NCBI GenBank assembly: GCA_937900605.1
Contig: CALCDK010000107.1
Location: 1 to 14,086, forward strand
Source: an uncultured Olsenella sp.
Lineage (GTDB): Bacteria > Actinomycetota > Coriobacteriia > Coriobacteriales > Atopobiaceae
DNA length: 14,086 nt
Direction: 5' to 3'
The position numbers were made by a program, and so were the translations under genes. Shown piece by piece: positions 3,014 to 10,396 of this stretch (positions are counted from its first letter, which is position 1; every line of letters starts with the position of its first letter). The notes under the pieces are model-generated. The model made no database searches, was not told the DNA's origin, and saw nothing but the letters and a program-made list of their open reading frames with translations.

Positions 3014-6000
3014 CTACTCCCTCACCAGCTTGAGGAGCTCGTCGAAGGAGTCCACGAAGTCGTAGGACACCTCGCCGTGGCCCAGCTGGCGGAACATGGT
3101 GCGCACGCACTCGATCTTGCTGCGCTCGACGCCCTTGAGGCCAAGGGTGCGCATCGTGCCCTTGGTCTCGGCGACGAAGTACACGTGCTTCACGGTGCCC
3201 TCGTTGAAGGCGATGGCCCAGTCGGGCGCGTAGTTGCCCACCGGCGTGGGGATGGCGAAGTCGCGGGGCAGGCGGGCGTAGACGCACACCTCGTCCGAGA
3301 CGTCCATGTCCTCGCAGAAGCGGCGCTCCACGTCGGAGTCGCACCTCACCCAGTTCTGGATGCACTTCCTGGCGGCGACCACCCCGTCGAGGGACTCGGG
3401 CATGTCCTCGATGAAGATCTGGCTGTCGTAGGTCTCGTCCAGGCGGTTGTAGACGATGTGGTCCACCACCATGGCGGACTTGGCGTCGACGATGAGCGCA
3501 CCCACCTGCGCGATGAACTCCTCGGGGTTGGAGCGGAACTGCGCGAAGCGGTCGGGCCGGATGGCCGAGAGGATCCTCGCCGCTGTCCTGCGCGTGATCG
3601 CCGCGGCCTGGGCGACCTCGCCCAGCAGGTCGTAGCGCACGCCCACCGTGCCCGGGGCGCTCACGTCCATGGTGCGCGACTCCTCGGTGCGGAACTGGTC
3701 GCGGCTCTCCAGGGACTCGACGGTCGCCCTCTCTCGCTGCGCGCCGCGCACCAGCCGGTACTGCAGCGGCGTGACTCGCAGCCCGTCGTCGATGGCCCGG
3801 ACCGCCTTGCCCACCAGCTCGTCGGAGTCGAACTCCACCGTGTATGCGTGCCTGTGGTTGATGAGGCTCCAGAGCCTCTTGAACTCTGCCTTCTTGGCAT
3901 TGTCGTTGAGGTCGTTGCGGACCACCTTGGTCCCGTGGCCGTCGGAGATGACGCCGTCGAGGGCGTGCGGGTCCTCCACGCTCCTGACCAGCGCCTCGAT
4001 CTGGGGCACGAAGTCGGCCAGGTTCTCGGGCAGCTCGGCCTCGTCCACGCGGGACAGGCCCTCGTCGCGGAAGCGCTGGGTGGGCAGTCCGTCCCTGTCG
4101 ATGAGGCGGCCGGCGATGAGCTGGTACATGATGTCGGAGGCGTCCTCGTCGGTGAGGCGCTGCTCCAGGCCCGCCTGGTTCCTGATGGTGACGCCGGCGA
4201 AGAGCGCGGCCTCGACCCTCTTGGGGCGTCGGCGCAGCTCGTGGCGCATGCCGGACTGCAGCGAGCGGGCATAGCTGCCGTAGCCCTCGGACGCGATGAC
4301 CGTGAGCAGGTTCACGCGGTGCACCCCGTCCTTCCCCAGCAGCGCCGCGTCCTGGCGCACGCCCAGCTGGTCGACGGCCAGGCGCAGGCCGCGGCCCACC
4401 TCCTGTCGCTTGGCGATGTCGGAGTCGCCCGCGGGCTTGAGGGTGCAGATCTGAAAGATGTTGGGGTTGTCCCAGCCCTCGCGCAGCGCAGAGTGCGAGA
4501 AGACGAAGCGACACGGCTCGTCGAACGAGAGCAGGCGCTCCTTGTTCTTGAGGATGAGGTCATAGGCGCTCTGGTCGTCGGCGTCCTCCCTGCCGCGGCG
4601 CACCCTGGGGTCCACCGAGCGCCCCTTCCTGTCCACCGAGAAGTACCCCTTGTGGACGTCGTGCGCGTCGAAGCTGCGCAGGTAGGCCAGGTACCGGGAG
4701 TCGTAGGCGTCGTCCAGCGTGGGCTCGGCGCAGCGGGCCTCGACGGCGGCGCGGTACTCCTCCTCGAAGATGCGCCCGTACTCGCCCGGGCCCTCGTTTC
4801 CGTCCTCGTCGTAGACGCGGTACTTGGCCACCTCGTCCACGAAGAACAGGGAGAGGCACTTGATGCCACGGCGGAACAGCGCCTCCTCCTTCTGGAGGTG
4901 CGACGCAATCGTCTCGCGGATCTGGATGCGGCGCAGGTCCTCCTCGGTGGAGTCGTTGACCACCTGACCACAGTGGATGCGCTCGTGGCTCATGAGCTCG
5001 ACGTATCCGGCCTGGCCGTCGGTCCCGGGGACGATGCGCAGGATGCGGAAGCCCTCGCGATAGGCCTCGAGCTCGCCGGACGCCTGGTAGACGTCATCGC
5101 CCTCGTCGAAGGTGCGGGTGACCTTGGACACCGTGCCCCCGGCGCGCCTGGCCTTGATCTCCATCACCGCACGGGGCGGCCTGCTGGGGCTCACCTTGAT
5201 CTCCTGCAGGTAGAGGTAGCCGTCCGTGCCGCGCATGCCGCACAGCTCGATGCCCTTGACCTCGATGCGCTTGACCAGGCGCTCGTTGTAGGCGTCCAGG
5301 GGGTCCAGCGAGTAGACCTTGTTGTGCTCCTCCTTGTGCGTGGCGGAGTAGTTCAGCGAGAAGAGCGGGTTGAACTGCCTCATGGACTTGCGCGTGGCAC
5401 CGGACTTGGCCCCCATCTTCTGCGGCTCGTCGATGATGAGGATGGGATTGGTCTTGGCCAGCACGTCGATGGGGCGCCTCGAGCCGAACTCGTCGCGCTC
5501 CGAGAACATGATGCGCGCCGTCTTGTCGCCGCCGCGGCCGTCCTTGTTCTTGGACTCGTCGAAGGCGTTGAACGCCTGCATGTTGATGACCATGACCGAG
5601 ATGTCCGCACGCGAGGCGAACGAGTCGATCTCGCTCAGGCGGCTCGAGTCGTACACGAACGACCAGACGCGCTTGCCGTACTGCTCGTAGAAGTGCCTGG
5701 CCGTGATCTCCAGCGACTTGGCCACGCCCTCGCGGATGGCCACACTGGGCACCACGACGATGAACTTGGACCAGCCGTAGCGGGCGTTGAGCTCGAACAT
5801 GGTCTTGGTGTAGACGTAGGTCTTGCCGGTGCCCGTCTCCATCTCGACGTCCAGCTCCACCGCGCCCAGGGCATGGCAGAGCCCCCTGACGTCGCTCACC
5901 ACACCGTTCTTGCGCTGCACGGACTCCACGTTGGCGAGCAGCTCCTCCGACGAGAGGCGCAGCGGCGCGTTGCGGTAGCCCGTGCCGTCGTCCACCACGA

Positions 6001-6175
6001 CGCCGTCCGAGCCACCGAGAAGCCCCAGGCCCCGCTGGCCCCGGGCGTCAACGCGCTCCGGGCGCAGGCCGCGCAGGTAGGACTGCGCGTCGACCTTGGG
6101 CTGGCCGTCGAAGACGCTGGCCACGGCATCGGCCGCGCGCGTCTGGTAGTCCAGCACCTTGAACTTGAATTCCAT
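3014..6175 (-). CDS. res: Type III restriction enzyme Res subunit (helicase-nuclease)
   Basis: The restriction subunit of a type III system, which with Mod forms an ATP-dependent complex that moves on DNA and cuts beside unmethylated sites. It has 1053 residues from the ATG at 6175, slightly longer than typical. Superfamily 2 helicase motifs are in order: Walker A METGTGKT (112-119), VVVPSVAIREGV, Walker B IIDEPQKM (247-254), SATH (277-280), SHSALREGWDNPN (560-572) and QEVGRGLRL (591-599). The C-terminal nuclease is intact: PDW (Asp985) then ETK (Glu1003, Lys1005), the PD-ExK pattern. In-frame TTG/GTG codons at 6181-6187 could add four residues, but MEFKFKVLDYQ matches the usual Res N-terminus. 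No strong SD precedes it. Unusually, it is separated from mod by an opposite-strand toxin-antitoxin pair and so needs its own promoter. Confidence 0.96.
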   Translation of the reverse strand: MEFKFKVLDYQTRAADAVASVFDGQPKVDAQSYLRGLRPERVDARGQRGLGLLGGSDGVVVDDGTGYRNAPLRLSSEELLANVESVQRKNGVVSDVRGLCHALGAVELDVEMETGTGKTYVYTKTMFELNARYGWSKFIVVVPSVAIREGVAKSLEITARHFYEQYGKRVWSFVYDSSRLSEIDSFASRADISVMVINMQAFNAFDESKNKDGRGGDKTARIMFSERDEFGSRRPIDVLAKTNPILIIDEPQKMGAKSGATRKSMRQFNPLFSLNYSATHKEEHNKVYSLDPLDAYNERLVKRIEVKGIELCGMRGTDGYLYLQEIKVSPSRPPRAVMEIKARRAGGTVSKVTRTFDEGDDVYQASGELEAYREGFRILRIVPGTDGQAGYVELMSHERIHCGQVVNDSTEEDLRRIQIRETIASHLQKEEALFRRGIKCLSLFFVDEVAKYRVYDEDGNEGPGEYGRIFEEEYRAAVEARCAEPTLDDAYDSRYLAYLRSFDAHDVHKGYFSVDRKGRSVDPRVRRGREDADDQSAYDLILKNKERLLSFDEPCRFVFSHSALREGWDNPNIFQICTLKPAGDSDIAKRQEVGRGLRLAVDQLGVRQDAALLGKDGVHRVNLLTVIASEGYGSYARSLQSGMRHELRRRPKRVEAALFAGVTIRNQAGLEQRLTDEDASDIMYQLIAGRLIDRDGLPTQRFRDEGLSRVDEAELPENLADFVPQIEALVRSVEDPHALDGVISDGHGTKVVRNDLNDNAKKAEFKRLWSLINHRHAYTVEFDSDELVGKAVRAIDDGLRVTPLQYRLVRGAQRERATVESLESRDQFRTEESRTMDVSAPGTVGVRYDLLGEVAQAAAITRRTAARILSAIRPDRFAQFRSNPEEFIAQVGALIVDAKSAMVVDHIVYNRLDETYDSQIFIEDMPESLDGVVAARKCIQNWVRCDSDVERRFCEDMDVSDEVCVYARLPRDFAIPTPVGNYAPDWAIAFNEGTVKHVYFVAETKGTMRTLGLKGVERSKIECVRTMFRQLGHGEVSYDFVDSFDELLKLVRE

Positions 6176-6194
6176 AGTCAACACCAATCTGTGC

Positions 6195-6244: not shown

Positions 6245-6547
6245 ATGATCATCGCACCCATTAAGGAGCTTAAGGACGGAGCCGCGATCTCCGCGAAGTG
6301 CCACGAGGCACAGGAGCCCATCTTCATCACGAAGAACGGCTACGACGACATGGTCATCATGAGCACCGAGGTCTTCAATCGCTACGAGGGCCTCATGCGT
6401 CGCCTTGGCGAGCGGGAGTCCGAGCGCCAGAGGGAGCGCGACGAGATTGTCCGCGATTTCCGGCAGAGCATGGCGGAGTACCAAGAGGGGGACACCATCG
6501 ACGCCACCGAGGCCGTGTCCGAGCTGAGGAACCGCTATGGCATATAG
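6245..6547 (+). CDS. Phd/YefM family antitoxin
   Basis: A 100-residue antitoxin that should neutralise the adjacent toxin and repress the shared promoter. The N-terminal half has the Phd/YefM pattern: IAPIKELKDGAAISAKCHEA, then PIFITKNGYDDMVIMSTEVFNRYE (about 25-48), matching the usual 'pv.ItknGy.d.VlmS.e.ye' core. The C-terminal half is highly charged (GERESERQRERDEI, about 55-68), probably a disordered helix that wraps the toxin. Its last 11 nt overlap the toxin start, so the two are translationally coupled. Base composition is visibly less GC-rich than the flanking housekeeping genes, which suggests transfer. The family is confident; whether the pair is closer to YefM-YoeB or a ParE/RelE-type system is judged from the toxin. 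Confidence 0.9.
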   Translation: MIIAPIKELKDGAAISAKCHEAQEPIFITKNGYDDMVIMSTEVFNRYEGLMRRLGERESERQRERDEIVRDFRQSMAEYQEGDTIDATEAVSELRNRYGI

Positions 6548-6869
6548 CGTCAAGTTCTCTCGCACCGCCCGAGAGCGCCTGGACGAAATTACCCGCTATC
6601 TCACCGAAGAGCTTCATCTCACGTCCTCCGTCGTGTCCATGTACGACGACCTCGAGTCCAAACTGAGCGTGCTGCGCGAATTCCCCCGTGCCTACGCAAT
6701 CGGCGAAGAGGCCTGCGAGGCAACCGGCCACACCGTGCGGAGCGCCCGTGTCCGCTCGTTCCGGCTCCTCTATCACGTCGATGAAGAGAGGGGCGTCGTC
6801 CTCGTCCTCAGCGTTCGCTTCTGCAGCGAAGACCCAACATCCATCGGGAGCCTGAGGCGAGAGCGCTAG
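6537..6869 (+). CDS. RelE/ParE family toxin
   Basis: A 110-residue toxin of the RelE/ParE fold, which either cleaves mRNA on the ribosome (RelE-like) or poisons gyrase (ParE-like). It starts at ATG 6537 inside the antitoxin's end. MAYSVKFSRTARERLDEITRYL (1-22) is the usual opening strand and helix with A.e.L.eI..Yl, and the core RSFRLLYHVDEERGVVLVLSVRF (about 73-95) is the typical 'yRilY.vde....v.il.v.h' ending. Because the exact catalytic residues differ within the family, I cannot choose between mRNA interferase and gyrase inhibitor. It is followed by a hairpin and faces the mod gene end-to-end, 57 bp apart. Confidence 0.88.
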   Translation: MAYSVKFSRTARERLDEITRYLTEELHLTSSVVSMYDDLESKLSVLREFPRAYAIGEEACEATGHTVRSARVRSFRLLYHVDEERGVVLVLSVRFCSEDPTSIGSLRRER

Positions 6870-6926: not shown

Positions 6927-8843
6927 CTACACCACCTTGGCAACGGTCTCCGGGCTCAGGGTCTTGAAGATCTCGGCGAAGTTGGACAGCGCGTCGTCGC
7001 CCGCGAAGGAGGCATCGCGCATGACGGCGTACGTGGGGCGCAGCTCCGCCATGGCACGGATGACGTCCTCGGGCACGTCGCGGTCGAAACAGGCGACGAG
7101 CTCGTCCCCACCCACCTTGTAGACCGTCCTGCCGCACGCCTCGACCGCCTCGACGGGAGCCGAGTACGGAATCTGATAGCGGGGGAACAGCTGGTAGAGG
7201 ATGTCCTCGGCGCTGCGCCCGTCCTTGAGGTTGTCGGCCCTGTCGAACAGGGACTCCTGACGAAGCGCCCCGGGTTCCGCCGTCACGTCCTCGAAGTTGG
7301 AGGAATCGACCTTGAACACGCGGAAGCCGACGTCGGGCAGCTCCTTGGGCTGCTCGCCGATCTTGAGCTGGGCGTTGCCCTCCTCGACCTCCGCGACGAT
7401 CTTGGCGCCCGCACGACGGATGCGCTCCTCGCCGATCTCGCAGATGGTCTTGTAGCCGTCCCTGCAGGCCTCACGCTTCTCGTCAGTTTCCTCGGGCGGC
7501 TGGACAAGGATGAACTTGGCATGCGTCCCCTTCTCCGCGTTTCGCCTCATGAGCGCATGCGCCGTAGTACCGGAGCCTGAAAAGAAGTCGAGGACAATGG
7601 AGTTGTCCGCAAGGTTGCCCAAGGTGATGAGCCTTTCCAAAAGGCGCACGGGCTTGGGGCCGTCGAAGTAGCCCTTGCCGTCGAACAAGGCGACAACTTC
7701 CTTGGCGCCCTCCTGGCTGTGGCCAACCTCCTTGTAGAACAGAATCGAGGTGGGGGCCATGCCGTCGAACTTGAGCTCAGATAGGAAGCGCTTGATTCGG
7801 GGGACGCCATTGCCGTCGGAGCCAAACCAAATGCGATTGTCCTGGAGCCTCTCGAAGAACGCTTTCTTCGAGAGGCTCCAGCAGCGCCCTGCTGGAGGCT
7901 CTACGATGCGCCCGGAGGGCGTCTCGATGGGATAGTCGCAAGCCTCGTTGTACGTTTTCACGGTCATGTTATCCGACATCCACACGCCACGCGGGTCATT
8001 GTCGGGATTGGAGTAGCGGGCATTGGCCTCGGCCGTCCTCTCAAGGCGGCCGATCTTGAACGAATCGGCGGACTTGGCGACCATGAGCACGTAGTCATGG
8101 CTGTTGGAGACGTACTTTGCGTCGTTCTTCGGGGAGAACGCCCGCTCCCAGATCAGCTGGGCGATGAAGTTGCCCGCACCAAAGACCTCGTCGAGGAGCT
8201 TGCGCGCGTTGCAGTCCTCGTAGTCGTCAATGCTCATGAAGATGACGCCGTCCTCGCTCAGCAGGTCGCGGGCGAGCACGAGGCGCGGGTACATCATCGA
8301 GCACCAGTCGGAGTGGAAGCGACCATTGGTCTCCTTGTTCTCCCTGAAGGAGGCGTCGAGGAGATTGCCCTCGTCGTCGAAGGCGGCGTTGTCCTCGCGC
8401 TCCTCCTGCGCGCTGCGGGCGAAGGAGTCGTTGTAGACGAAGTCGTGGCCGGTGTTGTACGGCGGGTCGATGTAGATCATCTTGACTTTGCCGGCGTAGG
8501 CCTCGCGCAGAATCTTGAGGGCGTCCAGGTTGTCGCCCTCGATGTACAGGTTCTGGGTGTCGTCCCAGTTCACGCTCTTCTCCCTGCGGGGGCGCAGGGT
8601 CTTGTCGATGGGGCGCATCGCCTCGGCTCGGGCGCGCTGCTTGCCCGGCCAGGTGAACTGGTAGCGCTCGCGCATATCCTCGGCCACGTCACCCACGTGG
8701 GCCTTGAGGGCCTCCACGTCGATCGAGTGGCGAAGCTCGCCGTTCGGGCCCATGACCTCGATCACAGCGTCGGGGAACAGCTCGGCCAGCTTGGCGGCGT
8801 TCTCCTCGGCGATGTCCGCGGTGTGCAGGTCTACCTTCTCAAT
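6927..8843 (-). CDS. mod: Type III DNA methyltransferase Mod subunit (adenine-N6, beta class); non-canonical start
   Basis: The modification and target-recognition subunit of the type III system, which methylates N6 of adenine using SAM and guides Res. From an ATT at 8843 it has 638 residues, a normal length. The order is beta class: DPPYNTG (126-132), then the target-recognition region, then DFFSGSGTTAHA (419-430). The first 26 residues, EKVDLHTADIAEENAAKLAE and on through LFPDAV, match the usual Mod N-terminus, yet contain no ATG, GTG or TTG. The first standard codon is GTG at 8765, which has no SD and would delete this segment. GGGGGAGG (8858-8851) sits 7 nt before ATT 8843 and 4 nt before CTG 8846 (639 residues). 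An 18-bp inverted repeat lies at residues 322-334. Its transcript runs against the TA operon. Confidence 0.93.
   Translation of the reverse strand: MEKVDLHTADIAEENAAKLAELFPDAVIEVMGPNGELRHSIDVEALKAHVGDVAEDMRERYQFTWPGKQRARAEAMRPIDKTLRPRREKSVNWDDTQNLYIEGDNLDALKILREAYAGKVKMIYIDPPYNTGHDFVYNDSFARSAQEEREDNAAFDDEGNLLDASFRENKETNGRFHSDWCSMMYPRLVLARDLLSEDGVIFMSIDDYEDCNARKLLDEVFGAGNFIAQLIWERAFSPKNDAKYVSNSHDYVLMVAKSADSFKIGRLERTAEANARYSNPDNDPRGVWMSDNMTVKTYNEACDYPIETPSGRIVEPPAGRCWSLSKKAFFERLQDNRIWFGSDGNGVPRIKRFLSELKFDGMAPTSILFYKEVGHSQEGAKEVVALFDGKGYFDGPKPVRLLERLITLGNLADNSIVLDFFSGSGTTAHALMRRNAEKGTHAKFILVQPPEETDEKREACRDGYKTICEIGEERIRRAGAKIVAEVEEGNAQLKIGEQPKELPDVGFRVFKVDSSNFEDVTAEPGALRQESLFDRADNLKDGRSAEDILYQLFPRYQIPYSAPVEAVEACGRTVYKVGGDELVACFDRDVPEDVIRAMAELRPTYAVMRDASFAGDDALSNFAEIFKTLSPETVAKVV
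7842..7881. repeat. 18-bp perfect inverted repeat with 4-nt loop inside mod
   Basis: The left arm 7842-7859 and the right arm 7864-7881 are exact reverse complements, and the loop is CGCT (7860-7863). It lies in the coding frame of mod and encodes the segment WSLSKKAFFERLQ in the target-recognition region. The frame stays open and the flanking protein matches the family, so it is not an obvious assembly error. Confidence 0.9.
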
Positions 8844-8850
8844 CAGAACG

Positions 8851-8858
8851 CCTCCCCC
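8851..8858 (-). promoter_or_regulatory. Ribosome binding site deciding the non-canonical mod start
   Basis: The minus strand reads GGGGGAGG (8858 to 8851), a strong Shine-Dalgarno. The codons after it in the mod frame are GTT, CTG (8846), ATT (8843), GAG. Spacing from GGAGG is 4 nt to CTG and 7 nt to ATT, so ATT is better placed, but CTG is the commoner alternative start. Confidence 0.65.
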
Positions 8859-8972
8859 TGCCCCTGTACGGGCATGCAGAGGCGTCCCGCCCGGCCCGCT
8901 GCGGCTGGGTGAGACGGCATAGGCACAGGGGCATCCACGGCGTCGCCCGCACGAACGACGCCTGCCTGGCAG

Positions 8973-9116
8973 TCAGTTGTGTTGTAGGAGCCTGTCGTGC
9001 TGGAGCGCGGCGTGCGCCGACATGCGGACGCCGCGTGGCCGCGGTGAGTGCGGCATGCAAAGGAGAAGAGACCTAGTCCAGGAATCCCCCCCCCCCGCTC
9101 TGTTGGCAGGGTACAT
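8973..9116 (-). CDS. Possible leader ORF of mod carrying an 11-G homopolymer
   Basis: A 47-residue ORF beginning MYPANRAGGGDSW with no recognisable family. Its start looks genuine: ATG at 9116, AAGGAG at 9131-9126 with 9-nt spacing, and a promoter about 40 nt further upstream. The G11 tract (9096-9086) lies at codons 7 to 11, so a change in tract length changes the frame. As given it stops at 8973, 126 nt before the mod start. With one G fewer it would be 90 residues and end in TGA at 8845-8843, overlapping the mod start. Composition is Arg/Pro-rich, as for random high-GC sequence, so it may be a regulatory leader or not translated at all. Confidence 0.3.
   Translation of the reverse strand: MYPANRAGGGDSWTRSLLLCMPHSPRPRGVRMSAHAALQHDRLLQHN
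9086..9096. repeat. C11/G11 homopolymer tract
   Basis: Eleven consecutive C on the plus strand (G on the mod strand), the only long homopolymer in the window. Tracts of this length are prone to slippage during replication and underlie phase variation in many bacteria. It is also a typical place for sequencing length errors. The rest of 8859-9163 holds no other recognisable gene. Confidence 0.9.
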
Positions 9117-9163
9117 GACGCCGCTCTCCTTAACCTGACGCGCTTGCACAGATAGGCGTCTCA

Positions 9164-9192
9164 AGTATAGGAAAGGCATCATCGACGGGCAA
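9164..9192 (-). promoter_or_regulatory. Promoter for the mod leader transcript
   Basis: On the minus strand, TTGCCC (9192-9187) and TATACT (9169-9164) are separated by exactly 17 bp, the best sigma-70-like promoter in the window. Transcription would start near 9157, leaving about 310 nt before the mod start codon. It lies between tRNA-Leu and mod and reads toward mod. Confidence 0.6.
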
Positions 9193-9198
9193 ACCCAG

Positions 9199-9219
9199 CG
9201 CCGAGGGGACGTCCCGGCG
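9199..9219 (-). terminator. Hairpin downstream of tRNA-Leu
   Basis: CGCCG (9199-9203) pairs with CGGCG (9215-9219) around a GGAC/GTCC core. It begins a few bases after the tRNA 3' end and precedes the mod promoter, so it may end the tRNA transcript. No T-tract follows. Confidence 0.35.
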
Positions 9220-9224
9220 AGAGG

Positions 9225-9306
9225 TGAGGGCGGTGGGACTCGAACCCACAATCCTTGCGGCCGTGGATTTTAAGTCCACTGCGTATGCCAGTTCCGCCAC
9301 GCCCCC
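9225..9306 (-). tRNA. tRNA-Leu (UAA), CCA not encoded
   Basis: The minus strand from 9306 folds as an 82-nt class II tRNA. The acceptor GGGGGCG pairs with CGCCCTC (one G-U pair), the anticodon stem GTGGA/TCCAC encloses CTTAAAA with anticodon TAA, a long variable arm GGCCGCAAGGATT follows, and the T arm is GTGGGTTCGAGTCCCAC. Discriminator A is followed by CCT rather than CCA, so the CCA end is added enzymatically. Confidence 0.95.
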
Positions 9307-9328
9307 GTGACGTCGCCGCGACGGCGCA

Positions 9329-9334
9329 ATTCTA
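9329..9334 (-). promoter_or_regulatory. -10 element of tRNA-Leu overlapping the upstream stop codon
   Basis: TAGAAT on the minus strand (9334 to 9329); its first three bases are the TAG stop of the Ppx/GppA-like gene. The start would be near 9322, about 16 nt before the tRNA. The context GCGCTAGAATTGC resembles GCGCTAGAATCGC upstream of mazG. No -35 box is evident. Confidence 0.4.
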
Positions 9335-10396
9335 GCGCAACGGCCTCATGGAGGGCGTCCAGGGCACCGGGCCCGGGCGTCCCGACACGGCGGCGTCGGC
9401 GGCGAGCGCAAGGCCGAAGAGCAGGTCGGACTCGCTGACCACCAGCTCGTCGAAGCCGGTCTGGCGCAGCAGCTCGCCCACCACCACGGCCCCGCCGAGC
9501 ATGACAGGGGCGCGCTTGGCCTGAAGGCCCGGAAGCTGGGCGCGGCGCTCGACCGGCATGGAGGCCAGCAGCCGCTCGACCCCGTCGAGCTGTGCGGCCC
9601 CCACGCGGGCCAGGTGCACCTGCGAGGGGTCGTACGGGTCCAGGCGCTTCTCGATGGCGACGACGCTCGTCGCGGTGCCGCCCACCACCACGAGCCTCGC
9701 CGGGACGAGGGGCTCGGGCGCGGCGTCGGCGTCGACGGCGTCAGGGGTGGCGTCGGCGGTGGCGTCGTGGGTCGCGGCGGCGTCGGCGGAGGGCACGCAC
9801 TCGGCCACGGGGCCCGCGAGCTGCGCGGCCACGAAGTCGTGGGCCCGCCGCAGGTCGTCGGCTGACGGGACCGGGGACGCCGAGAGGAACTTCTCGGTGA
9901 CCCTGCGGCAGCCCACGTCCACGGAGCGGACGCAGCGCAGGTCGAGCACGCCGTCGGCGCGCAGGCGGCCCAGCGCCAGCTCAGTGGAGCCGCCGCCGCT
10001 GTCGGCCACGAGGAGCGGCTCGCCGGGGAAGTCCTGCGCCACGCCAAGGAAGGTGAGGGCGCCCTCGACCTGGCCGGGGATGATGAGCGGGTCGAGCCCG
10101 ATCGAGTCCAGGGCCGCGCCCAGCTCCCAGGAGTTCTGCGCGTCGCGGGCGGCGCTCGTCAGCGTGCAGCACGCCGCCTGGCAGCCCGCCTCGCGCGCCG
10201 CGTCAACGTAGCCGCGGACGCACGCGAAGGTGCGCTCCATGGCCGCCTGCGACAGCCGGCGCGTGGCGTCGACGCCCTCGCCCAGGTTCACGATCTCGGA
10301 GTGCTTGGCCATGCGGGCCACGCGCCCGCCCTCGACGTCGGTGACCGCCAGCCTGGCGGTCACCGTGCCGATGTCGATGCACGCGACGCGAGGCAC
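9332..10396 (-). CDS. Ppx/GppA family phosphatase (exopolyphosphatase-like)
   Basis: A 354-residue cytoplasmic protein of the Ppx/GppA family, which removes terminal phosphate from polyphosphate or from guanosine pentaphosphate. It has the ASKHA ATP-binding fold. CIDIGTVTARLAV (6-18) is phosphate loop 1, TSAARDAQN (80-88) and PGQVEGALTFLGV (107-119) are family signatures, ADSGGGSTEL (131-140) is loop 2, and KRAPVMLGGAVVVGELL (294-310) is the C-terminal signature. An Ala/Asp-rich insert at about 203-228, encoded by repeated GGCGTCG-like units, sits between the lobes. The GTG start at 10396 lies one base after the upstream gene's TAG, with a GGGAGGGGGAG ribosome site inside that gene, so the two are co-transcribed. 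Lacking the C-terminal HD domain of long Ppx proteins, it is the short type. Which substrate it prefers cannot be read from sequence. Confidence 0.9.
   Translation of the reverse strand: MPRVACIDIGTVTARLAVTDVEGGRVARMAKHSEIVNLGEGVDATRRLSQAAMERTFACVRGYVDAAREAGCQAACCTLTSAARDAQNSWELGAALDSIGLDPLIIPGQVEGALTFLGVAQDFPGEPLLVADSGGGSTELALGRLRADGVLDLRCVRSVDVGCRRVTEKFLSASPVPSADDLRRAHDFVAAQLAGPVAECVPSADAAATHDATADATPDAVDADAAPEPLVPARLVVVGGTATSVVAIEKRLDPYDPSQVHLARVGAAQLDGVERLLASMPVERRAQLPGLQAKRAPVMLGGAVVVGELLRQTGFDELVVSESDLLFGLALAADAAVSGRPGPVPWTPSMRPLR

Follow-up and report, generated by a model that had tools for sequence, protein, structure and literature searches.

Phase-variable mod genes of type III restriction-modification (R-M) systems (phasevarions) are represented by modA, modH and modS. 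In the trp, cat and erm leaders, a hairpin that covers the ribosome-binding site of the following gene is opened when an upstream open reading frame (ORF) is translated. Here we analyse a stretch of 14,086 nucleotides from an uncultured Olsenella sp. (hereafter the window), in which a short leader ORF containing a run of eleven G residues (G11) lies upstream of a type III mod gene and may combine features of both kinds of control. Repeats that switch genes are placed within an ORF or a promoter in the relevant section of PMC11475388, and the GeneTack authors, in the corresponding section of PMC3711429, class phase variation and translational coupling separately. The terms translational coupling, leader, reinitiation and untranslated are absent from the phase-variation review PMC11868660. 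No description of a phase-variable coupled leader was found among the matches listed from the open-licence literature, subscription papers lying outside the search.

An earlier reading of the window (the original prediction) had proposed that a leader ORF is coupled to mod through the G11 tract, with G10 as the ON state and G11 as the OFF state. The features concerned are as follows.

9164..9192, minus strand: sigma-70-like promoter TTGCCC-N17-TATACT (TTGCCC 9192-9187, TATACT 9169-9164, N17 between), by consensus match only
9126..9131, minus strand: Shine-Dalgarno (SD) sequence of the leader, AAGGAG, read directly, 9 nt 5' of the ATG
8973..9116, minus strand: leader ORF as assembled (G11, OFF phase), ATG 9116-9114, 47 codons plus the stop TGA 8975-8973
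9086..9096, minus strand: G11 tract, at about leader codons 7-11
8843..9116, minus strand: leader ORF in its ON-phase extent (G10, G13 or G7), ATG 9116 to TGA 8845-8843
9073..9075, minus strand: stop of the third phase (G9 or G12), by frame reading
8851..8859, minus strand: SD of mod, AGGGGGAGG, 7 nt 5' of the ATT
8841..8843, minus strand: ATT in the conserved position of the mod start; the ON-phase stop overlaps it (TGATT)
6927..8843, minus strand: mod, type III N6/N4 DNA methyltransferase (PF01555, 2.7e-31; PADLOC MTase_III, 3.7e-206)

The promoter, SD, start codon, tract and assembled stop had all been read correctly to the base. Loss of one G, or gain of two, opens the leader frame as far as TGA 8845-8843, giving 90 codons with G10, 91 with G13 and 89 with G7; as had been read originally, this stop overlaps both CTG 8846-8844 and ATT 8843-8841 at the start of mod. 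With G12 and G9 the leader comprises 14 and 13 codons, respectively. The window thus appears to have been assembled in the OFF phase, G10 and G13 being the candidate ON states. G11 is the only homopolymer of at least 7 in the window, where 0.17 G/C runs of at least 11 would be expected at 69.8% GC. It lies in a separate ORF, outside the mod coding sequence, and 242 nt separate its end from the mod start. The promoter is the sole sigma-70-like match within 8700-9330 (shuffle mean 0.0).

Relatives of the window were examined in two sets: 79 Mod loci drawn from the best 80 matches, and homologues of the SNF2-type helicase at locus L007 (Thermophilibacter provencensis), for which a comparison with 396 class genomes gave 71 matches in 68 genomes, 69 of them analysed (the matches in G389 and G280 were left out). 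A G8 or longer tract was present upstream of mod in 15 of the 28 Coriobacteriia-titled mod loci. In 12 of these 15 it occupied a near-constant place about 4 kb upstream of mod, a few codons from the start of a short ORF that has an SD of its own and directly precedes a gene for an SNF2-type helicase; the operon order at L007 is helicase-DUF4391-mod-res. Among the 69 helicase homologues 15 carried a tract, and all 15 were at least 68% identical to the L007 query. Adding L002, the window, and L068 and L008, in which the tract immediately precedes mod, brings the total to 19 Coriobacteriia type III R-M loci that share an anatomy of SD, start codon, 6-10 codons and a tract of G8-G11, a repeat prone to slippage and with a unit length not divisible by three. 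G059:C25, which has nothing downstream, was left out, and G005:C1:1450029 is the same locus as L010. The leader was originally described as coupled to mod; the coupling is supported, and what these loci change is its target, since the leader heads a whole type III operon whose first gene is the helicase in 15 of the 19.

At 17 of the 19 tract loci (L068, the window and all 15 with the helicase), a single tract phase of the three has its stop 2, 3, 4 or 6 nt upstream of the next start codon, and the remaining two phases stop earlier. The spacers range from 51 to 242 nt. An upstream stop no more than 10 nt from the downstream start is the coupling criterion given in that section of PMC3711429, and all 17 loci fall within it (2-6 nt) in one phase only. 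The junction reads TGATT in the window and TGATG in L007 and others. At L068 the ON-frame leader ends in a DUF4391 remnant (E 8e-6 to L010) with its stop 6 nt before the mod ATG, which looks like a natural deletion that kept the stop-start junction with mod. The tail of the window leader lacks DUF4391 similarity.

Tract length differs between leaders that are otherwise almost the same. Between L158 (G10) and L160 (G9) there are differences at one upstream position of 110 and two spacer positions of 70; between L159 (G9) and L164 (G10) there are 2 upstream and 3 spacer differences. Over 18 loci (L002 left out), 9 were assembled ON and 9 OFF, the window among the latter. We also considered a functional leader peptide and rejected it, as the sequence is not conserved in seven related leaders: pairwise codon differences amounted to 156 nonsynonymous against 22 synonymous, so no peptide constraint is seen, and the variable columns numbered 12, 8 and 7 at codon positions 1, 2 and 3.

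Folding of the spacer end together with the start of the next gene predicted a further element in the window.

8844..8889, minus strand: predicted hairpin over the mod SD, -34.8 kcal/mol, pairing 7 of the 9 bases of AGGGGGAGG

The ribosome-binding-site region was predicted to be mostly paired at 15 of 17 loci, the window included (unpaired 0.00-0.19; shuffle means 0.33-0.48). Mean unpaired probability was 0.16 at tract loci versus 0.45 in 51 tract-less helicase homologues (Mann-Whitney p 8e-8; 10 representatives, p 1e-4). Across the seven related leaders pairing is kept in 92 of 98 stem cells although the bases change in 9 of 14 pairs, for the most part in the strand opposite the conserved SD; covariation is therefore weak, most changes being one-sided. 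A Rfam search over 8500-9500 of the window returned nothing but tRNA. In one Slackia DNA region (L001/L170), a long GC-rich terminator-like hairpin and a T-rich stretch lie between tract and helicase, a predicted arrangement that hints at attenuation instead of ribosome-binding-site masking in that leader.

We propose that the leader ORF, with its good SD, is translated through the poly-G tract, and that replication slippage shifts the length of the tract and hence the phase. In the ON phase, one of three, the ribosome would read through, and so open, the hairpin in which the first operon gene's ribosome-binding site is hidden, and would stop a few bases from the start of that gene, allowing efficient initiation there. 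In the other two phases an early stop would leave the hairpin closed and the operon translated little or not at all. The leader peptide itself would be disposable. For the window, the first operon gene would be mod, with G10 or G13 ON and the assembled G11 OFF. We give a probability of about three in four to the view that, across the class, slippage switches translational coupling of a type III R-M operon on and off in this way, and we hold the same mechanism for the window's exact allele with somewhat less confidence. The frames, the stop-start positions, their conservation across species and the tract-length differences between near-identical leaders are read from the DNA itself, and the hairpins are predicted; slippage within a strain, an effect on expression and its size, and any phasevarion are what we infer from them. 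The assignment of G10 as ON and G11 as OFF, which formed the core of the original prediction, is accordingly supported short of proof by the 17 loci, the predicted hairpins and the near-identical leaders one G apart, and the comparison of tract length and frame in relatives that it had called for yielded G8-G11 at 19 loci with one coupling phase in 17.

The proposed design shares with the phasevarion mod genes a type III Mod and Res, a repeat unit that is not a multiple of three and ON and OFF states predicted by frame; alleles with an exchanged central region are paralleled here by P0050 and P0053. It differs in that the repeat lies in a separate short leader ORF rather than within mod, that an SNF2-type helicase comes first at most loci, and that it is proposed to act via coupling. 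As in repeat-driven phase variation within an ORF or promoter, a change in repeat length would switch a gene, but here neither the coding sequence nor the promoter of the regulated gene holds the repeat, which sits in a leader ORF lying upstream and joined to that gene by a stop-start junction. With trp, cat and erm leader control it shares, by prediction, an upstream ORF whose translation opens a hairpin over the next ribosome-binding site. There the signal is an inducer or an amino acid; here it would be a mutation in tract length, and the conserved leader peptide of erm/cat-type attenuation is lacking. The design suggests a random on/off switch built unlike the textbook ones.

Several observations weigh against this interpretation. 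Two limits for a coupled junction were used (narrow, phase end 2-6 nt before the start; wide, -4 to +12 nt), of which the narrow one was set after the data had been seen. In dinucleotide shuffles of the window's spacer, some phase of the leader ended 2-6 nt before the ATT with a chance of 0.09, rising to 0.47 at the wide limits; taken alone, the overlap in the window is therefore suggestive only, as the original prediction had itself judged. Across loci, shuffled spacers gave a narrow junction with a probability of 0.015-0.22 each. For seven lineage representatives of our own choosing, the product of the shuffle probabilities, 1.6e-8 (narrow) or 9.5e-6 (wide), favours the proposal, but Fisher combination gave only 0.0011 (narrow; 0.0019 without the window) or 0.058 (wide). 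Furthermore, the loci are related, so that the counts are not independent, and tract lengths come from single assemblies in which homopolymer miscalls are possible. Nor is the tract universal: 54 of the 69 helicase homologues lack it, as do 13 of the 28 Coriobacteriia-titled mod loci (4 of the 13 having less than 6 kb of upstream sequence), so that relatives that keep mod without the overlap, named at the outset as a finding that would count against the idea, do in part exist. At L002 no phase reaches a start, each of them stopping no more than about 20 nt from the tract; the next long ORF there is DUF4391-like and the helicase thus appears degraded. The ribosome-binding sites of L170 and L171 (Slackia) are not buried (unpaired 0.41 and 0.49). 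No protein resembles the ON-frame tail of the window leader at E 0.001, and the ATT of the window could weaken mod even when the leader is in phase.

Stop-start proximity is also common where no tract is present. Assessed at 70 nt, 15 of 51 tract-less helicase homologues had such a junction within the narrow and 42 within the wide limits; when homologues preceded by an ORF of 100 codons or more are removed, the counts become 12 and 38 of 47 (L173, L183 and L179, which have no G7 or longer tract, were excluded from these controls; no start codon was found in L179). The geometry alone is therefore no proof of a role for the tract, and this too counts against the proposal. The proximity arises because a small ORF often sits there: an ORF of 20-99 codons ends beside the helicase start in 36 of the 51, and a longer one in 4. 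These small ORFs make the tract-less homologues no true null. The tract loci stand out in that the proximity is confined to a single tract phase and the peptide is unconserved.

In many tract-less sister operons (L174-L224) a ribbon-helix-helix (RHH)-like ORF of 67-90 aa ends near the helicase start, and many of 20 small upstream ORFs that were read are of this kind. Against NCBIfam, two of four small ORFs (L184, L195) scored above the YlcI/YnfO cut-off, one below it and one had no match; all Pfam matches for eight small ORFs were below cut-off. By a simple motif test, an RHH-like sequence lies upstream in 25 of 51 tract-less but 0 of 18 tract loci. The sister operons thus resemble the tract loci in having a short ORF just upstream that ends near the helicase start, and differ in that this ORF looks like a conserved DNA-binding-type protein rather than an unconserved poly-G leader. 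On our reading of these sequences, a small gene is coupled to the helicase in the sister operons and a poly-G leader occupies the same slot in the tract lineage. The RHH-like gene may be an ancestral regulator that was replaced by the leader.

The start of mod in the window calls for separate comment. Most Coriobacteriia mod relatives checked have ATG at the position of the window's ATT; L008 has no ATG there, and other starts are used in L016, L031, L036, L052 and L075. The distance from the first base of the preceding stop to the mod ATG is 2, 5 or 6 nt in the 12 relatives that were compared. Among public sequences, six Mod proteins of 638 aa (97-100% identical) carry the N-terminus MEKVDL at the ATT position; since they begin with M, their start codon is presumably normal, as judged from the protein. 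A start at GTG 8765 was considered and rejected, because relatives start 26 codons earlier. The ATT therefore looks like a peculiarity of the window allele: the weak start of the original prediction may stand for this allele but does not seem to extend to its close relatives. The window's own form of Mod, 608 aa from an internal ATG, occurs on four contigs, which makes an assembly error at the ATT less likely. Either the start is a mutated, weak one, more dependent on coupling than usual, or the allele is decaying while OFF. Compared with P0001, the window Mod differs only at residue 1 (ATT) and at residue 449 (L449P, proline in the window); these two changes set it apart from the nearest public allele and are possibly the result of decay while OFF. 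P0050 and P0053 closely match the N- and C-terminal parts of the window Mod but not its central region, the pattern that an exchange of recognition domains between alleles would produce.

Three further features complete the neighbourhood of the leader.

3014..6187, minus strand: res, type III restriction subunit with helicase and endonuclease domains (PF04851, PF19778; PADLOC REase_III, 4.4e-265)
6245-6869, plus strand: Phd/YefM antitoxin and ParE-type toxin genes between mod and res, by domain search
9223..9306, minus strand: tRNA-Leu(taa) after ppx, by Rfam; similarity to the best relatives stops at the tRNA 3' end

The N6/N4 methyltransferase domain of Mod and the two domains of Res identify the R-M system of the window as type III. 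The minus-strand order is mfd-like, mazG-like (a label read off the sequence), ppx, tRNA-Leu(taa), leader, mod and res; mod and res are adjacent in L007 and split by the Phd/YefM-ParE pair in the window. The stretch from ppx to tRNA-Leu is up to 76% identical to Coriobacteriia genomes, with G020 the best match, followed closely by G067 and G091. The tRNA 3' end is where the best alignments break off, so that the leader and R-M genes look inserted after tRNA-Leu, in a bacterium (probably a gut one) close to Thermophilibacter and Olsenella. A Mod search in 140 genomes of the family of G020, to which the source genome of L007 (G001) also belongs, gave a match in 7, the best 56% identical. The leader DNA had no significant similarity among the fetched loci, and a scan of the leader flanks against IMG/VR gave no match.

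Poly-G tracts near gene starts are not confined to these operons. The pattern GGAG-N3..12-ATG-N9..36-G9 gave 115 overlapping matches in 50 of 197 class genomes versus 32 for the reversed pattern. Of 77 distinct sites, 6 were helicase leaders and 36 others had one phase of at least 200 codons through the tract, a count inflated by chance-open frames in GC-rich DNA. Several of the long phases enter proteins with signal-peptide-like starts, and single ones that were scanned have ChW, collagen-binding or Listeria-Bacteroides repeat domains; at L083, L086, L126, L134, L135, L140, L146, L151 and others, G9-G10 near the starts of secreted or surface-like ORFs mark putative contingency loci. Putative ordinary contingency loci thus surround the less ordinary coupled leader in this class. 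Related mod genes of two Bifidobacterium species carry poly-C in their first codons (L014, C8; L017, C10) and are out of frame as assembled, another tract phase being open over about 650 codons; these have the repeat inside mod, as classical phase-variable mod genes do and the window does not. At L110 (G087:C54), an SD-ATG-G11 leader has one phase, of 84 codons, whose end would overlap an ATG of a Peptidase_M78 (IrrE-like) gene, making it a possible second user of the coupled-leader design. For Eggerthella lenta (Coriobacteriia), a preprint is reported to describe phage evasion by large reversible inversions, a different mechanism (PMC13174815).

Other explanations were also considered. The window leader might be a decayed or chance feature, with mod permanently off and the 90-codon frame meaningless. 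The chance level of the overlap, the changes at residues 1 and 449 relative to P0001, the 608-aa form on 4 contigs and a spacer without significant similarity to DUF4391, the fetched loci or any protein all speak for it; yet the anatomy and the stop-start overlap are those of the relatives, the mod frame is open over 638 codons and a strong hairpin is predicted to bury the mod ribosome-binding site, with buried sites predicted at 14 further loci, so that we consider this doubtful. Alternatively, the same leader and tract could act on transcription, with untranslated OFF RNA exposed to Rho or to an in-leader terminator and translation protecting it in the ON phase. L170, with its GC-rich hairpin, T-rich stretch and unburied ribosome-binding site, would suit such attenuation, but a terminator scan of 8700-9330 in the window found none, the buried sites at 15 of 17 loci point to translation, and close stop-start spacing would not be required; a transcriptional switch seems unlikely.

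Slippage at 9-11 consecutive G residues may also take place during transcription or translation. The tract could on that basis be a site of RNA polymerase or ribosomal slippage, of fixed length and with a constant mix of phases, giving steady low expression and no genetic switching. The one-G differences between near-identical leaders and the even split of assembled phases argue otherwise, as does the resemblance of the intragenic tracts of the class and of the Bifidobacterium mod genes to ordinary contingency loci, and this explanation appears very unlikely. More improbable still is a leader that forms the real N-terminus of the gene downstream, which would make the tract an ordinary intragenic contingency tract. 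One phase at L008 does fuse leader and mod over 676 codons, and the ON frame equals the gene frame at 13 of the 15 helicase loci and L068 (spacing 3 or 6), but a stop codon separates leader and gene at 17 of the 19 tract loci, and leaderless helicase and mod homologues mostly start at about the same place.

On the reading we prefer, in which tract slippage switches translational coupling, these loci may amount to a third anatomical class of repeat-driven phase variation, a proposal whose chances we judge slightly better than even. This would be a transferable 'slippage coupler', formed by a disposable poly-G leader and a hairpin-masked ribosome-binding site, that has replaced a small DNA-binding-like gene before Coriobacteriia type III operons and makes expression of the whole operon (helicase, DUF4391, Mod and Res) a coin toss. 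A repeat in an unannotated leader ORF, and its operon with it, could escape surveys limited to ORFs and promoters. If the proposal is true, type III defence as a whole is switched at random in some Coriobacteriia, perhaps together with gene sets that depend on methylation, and a regulator-like gene would seem to have been replaced by a stochastic switch.

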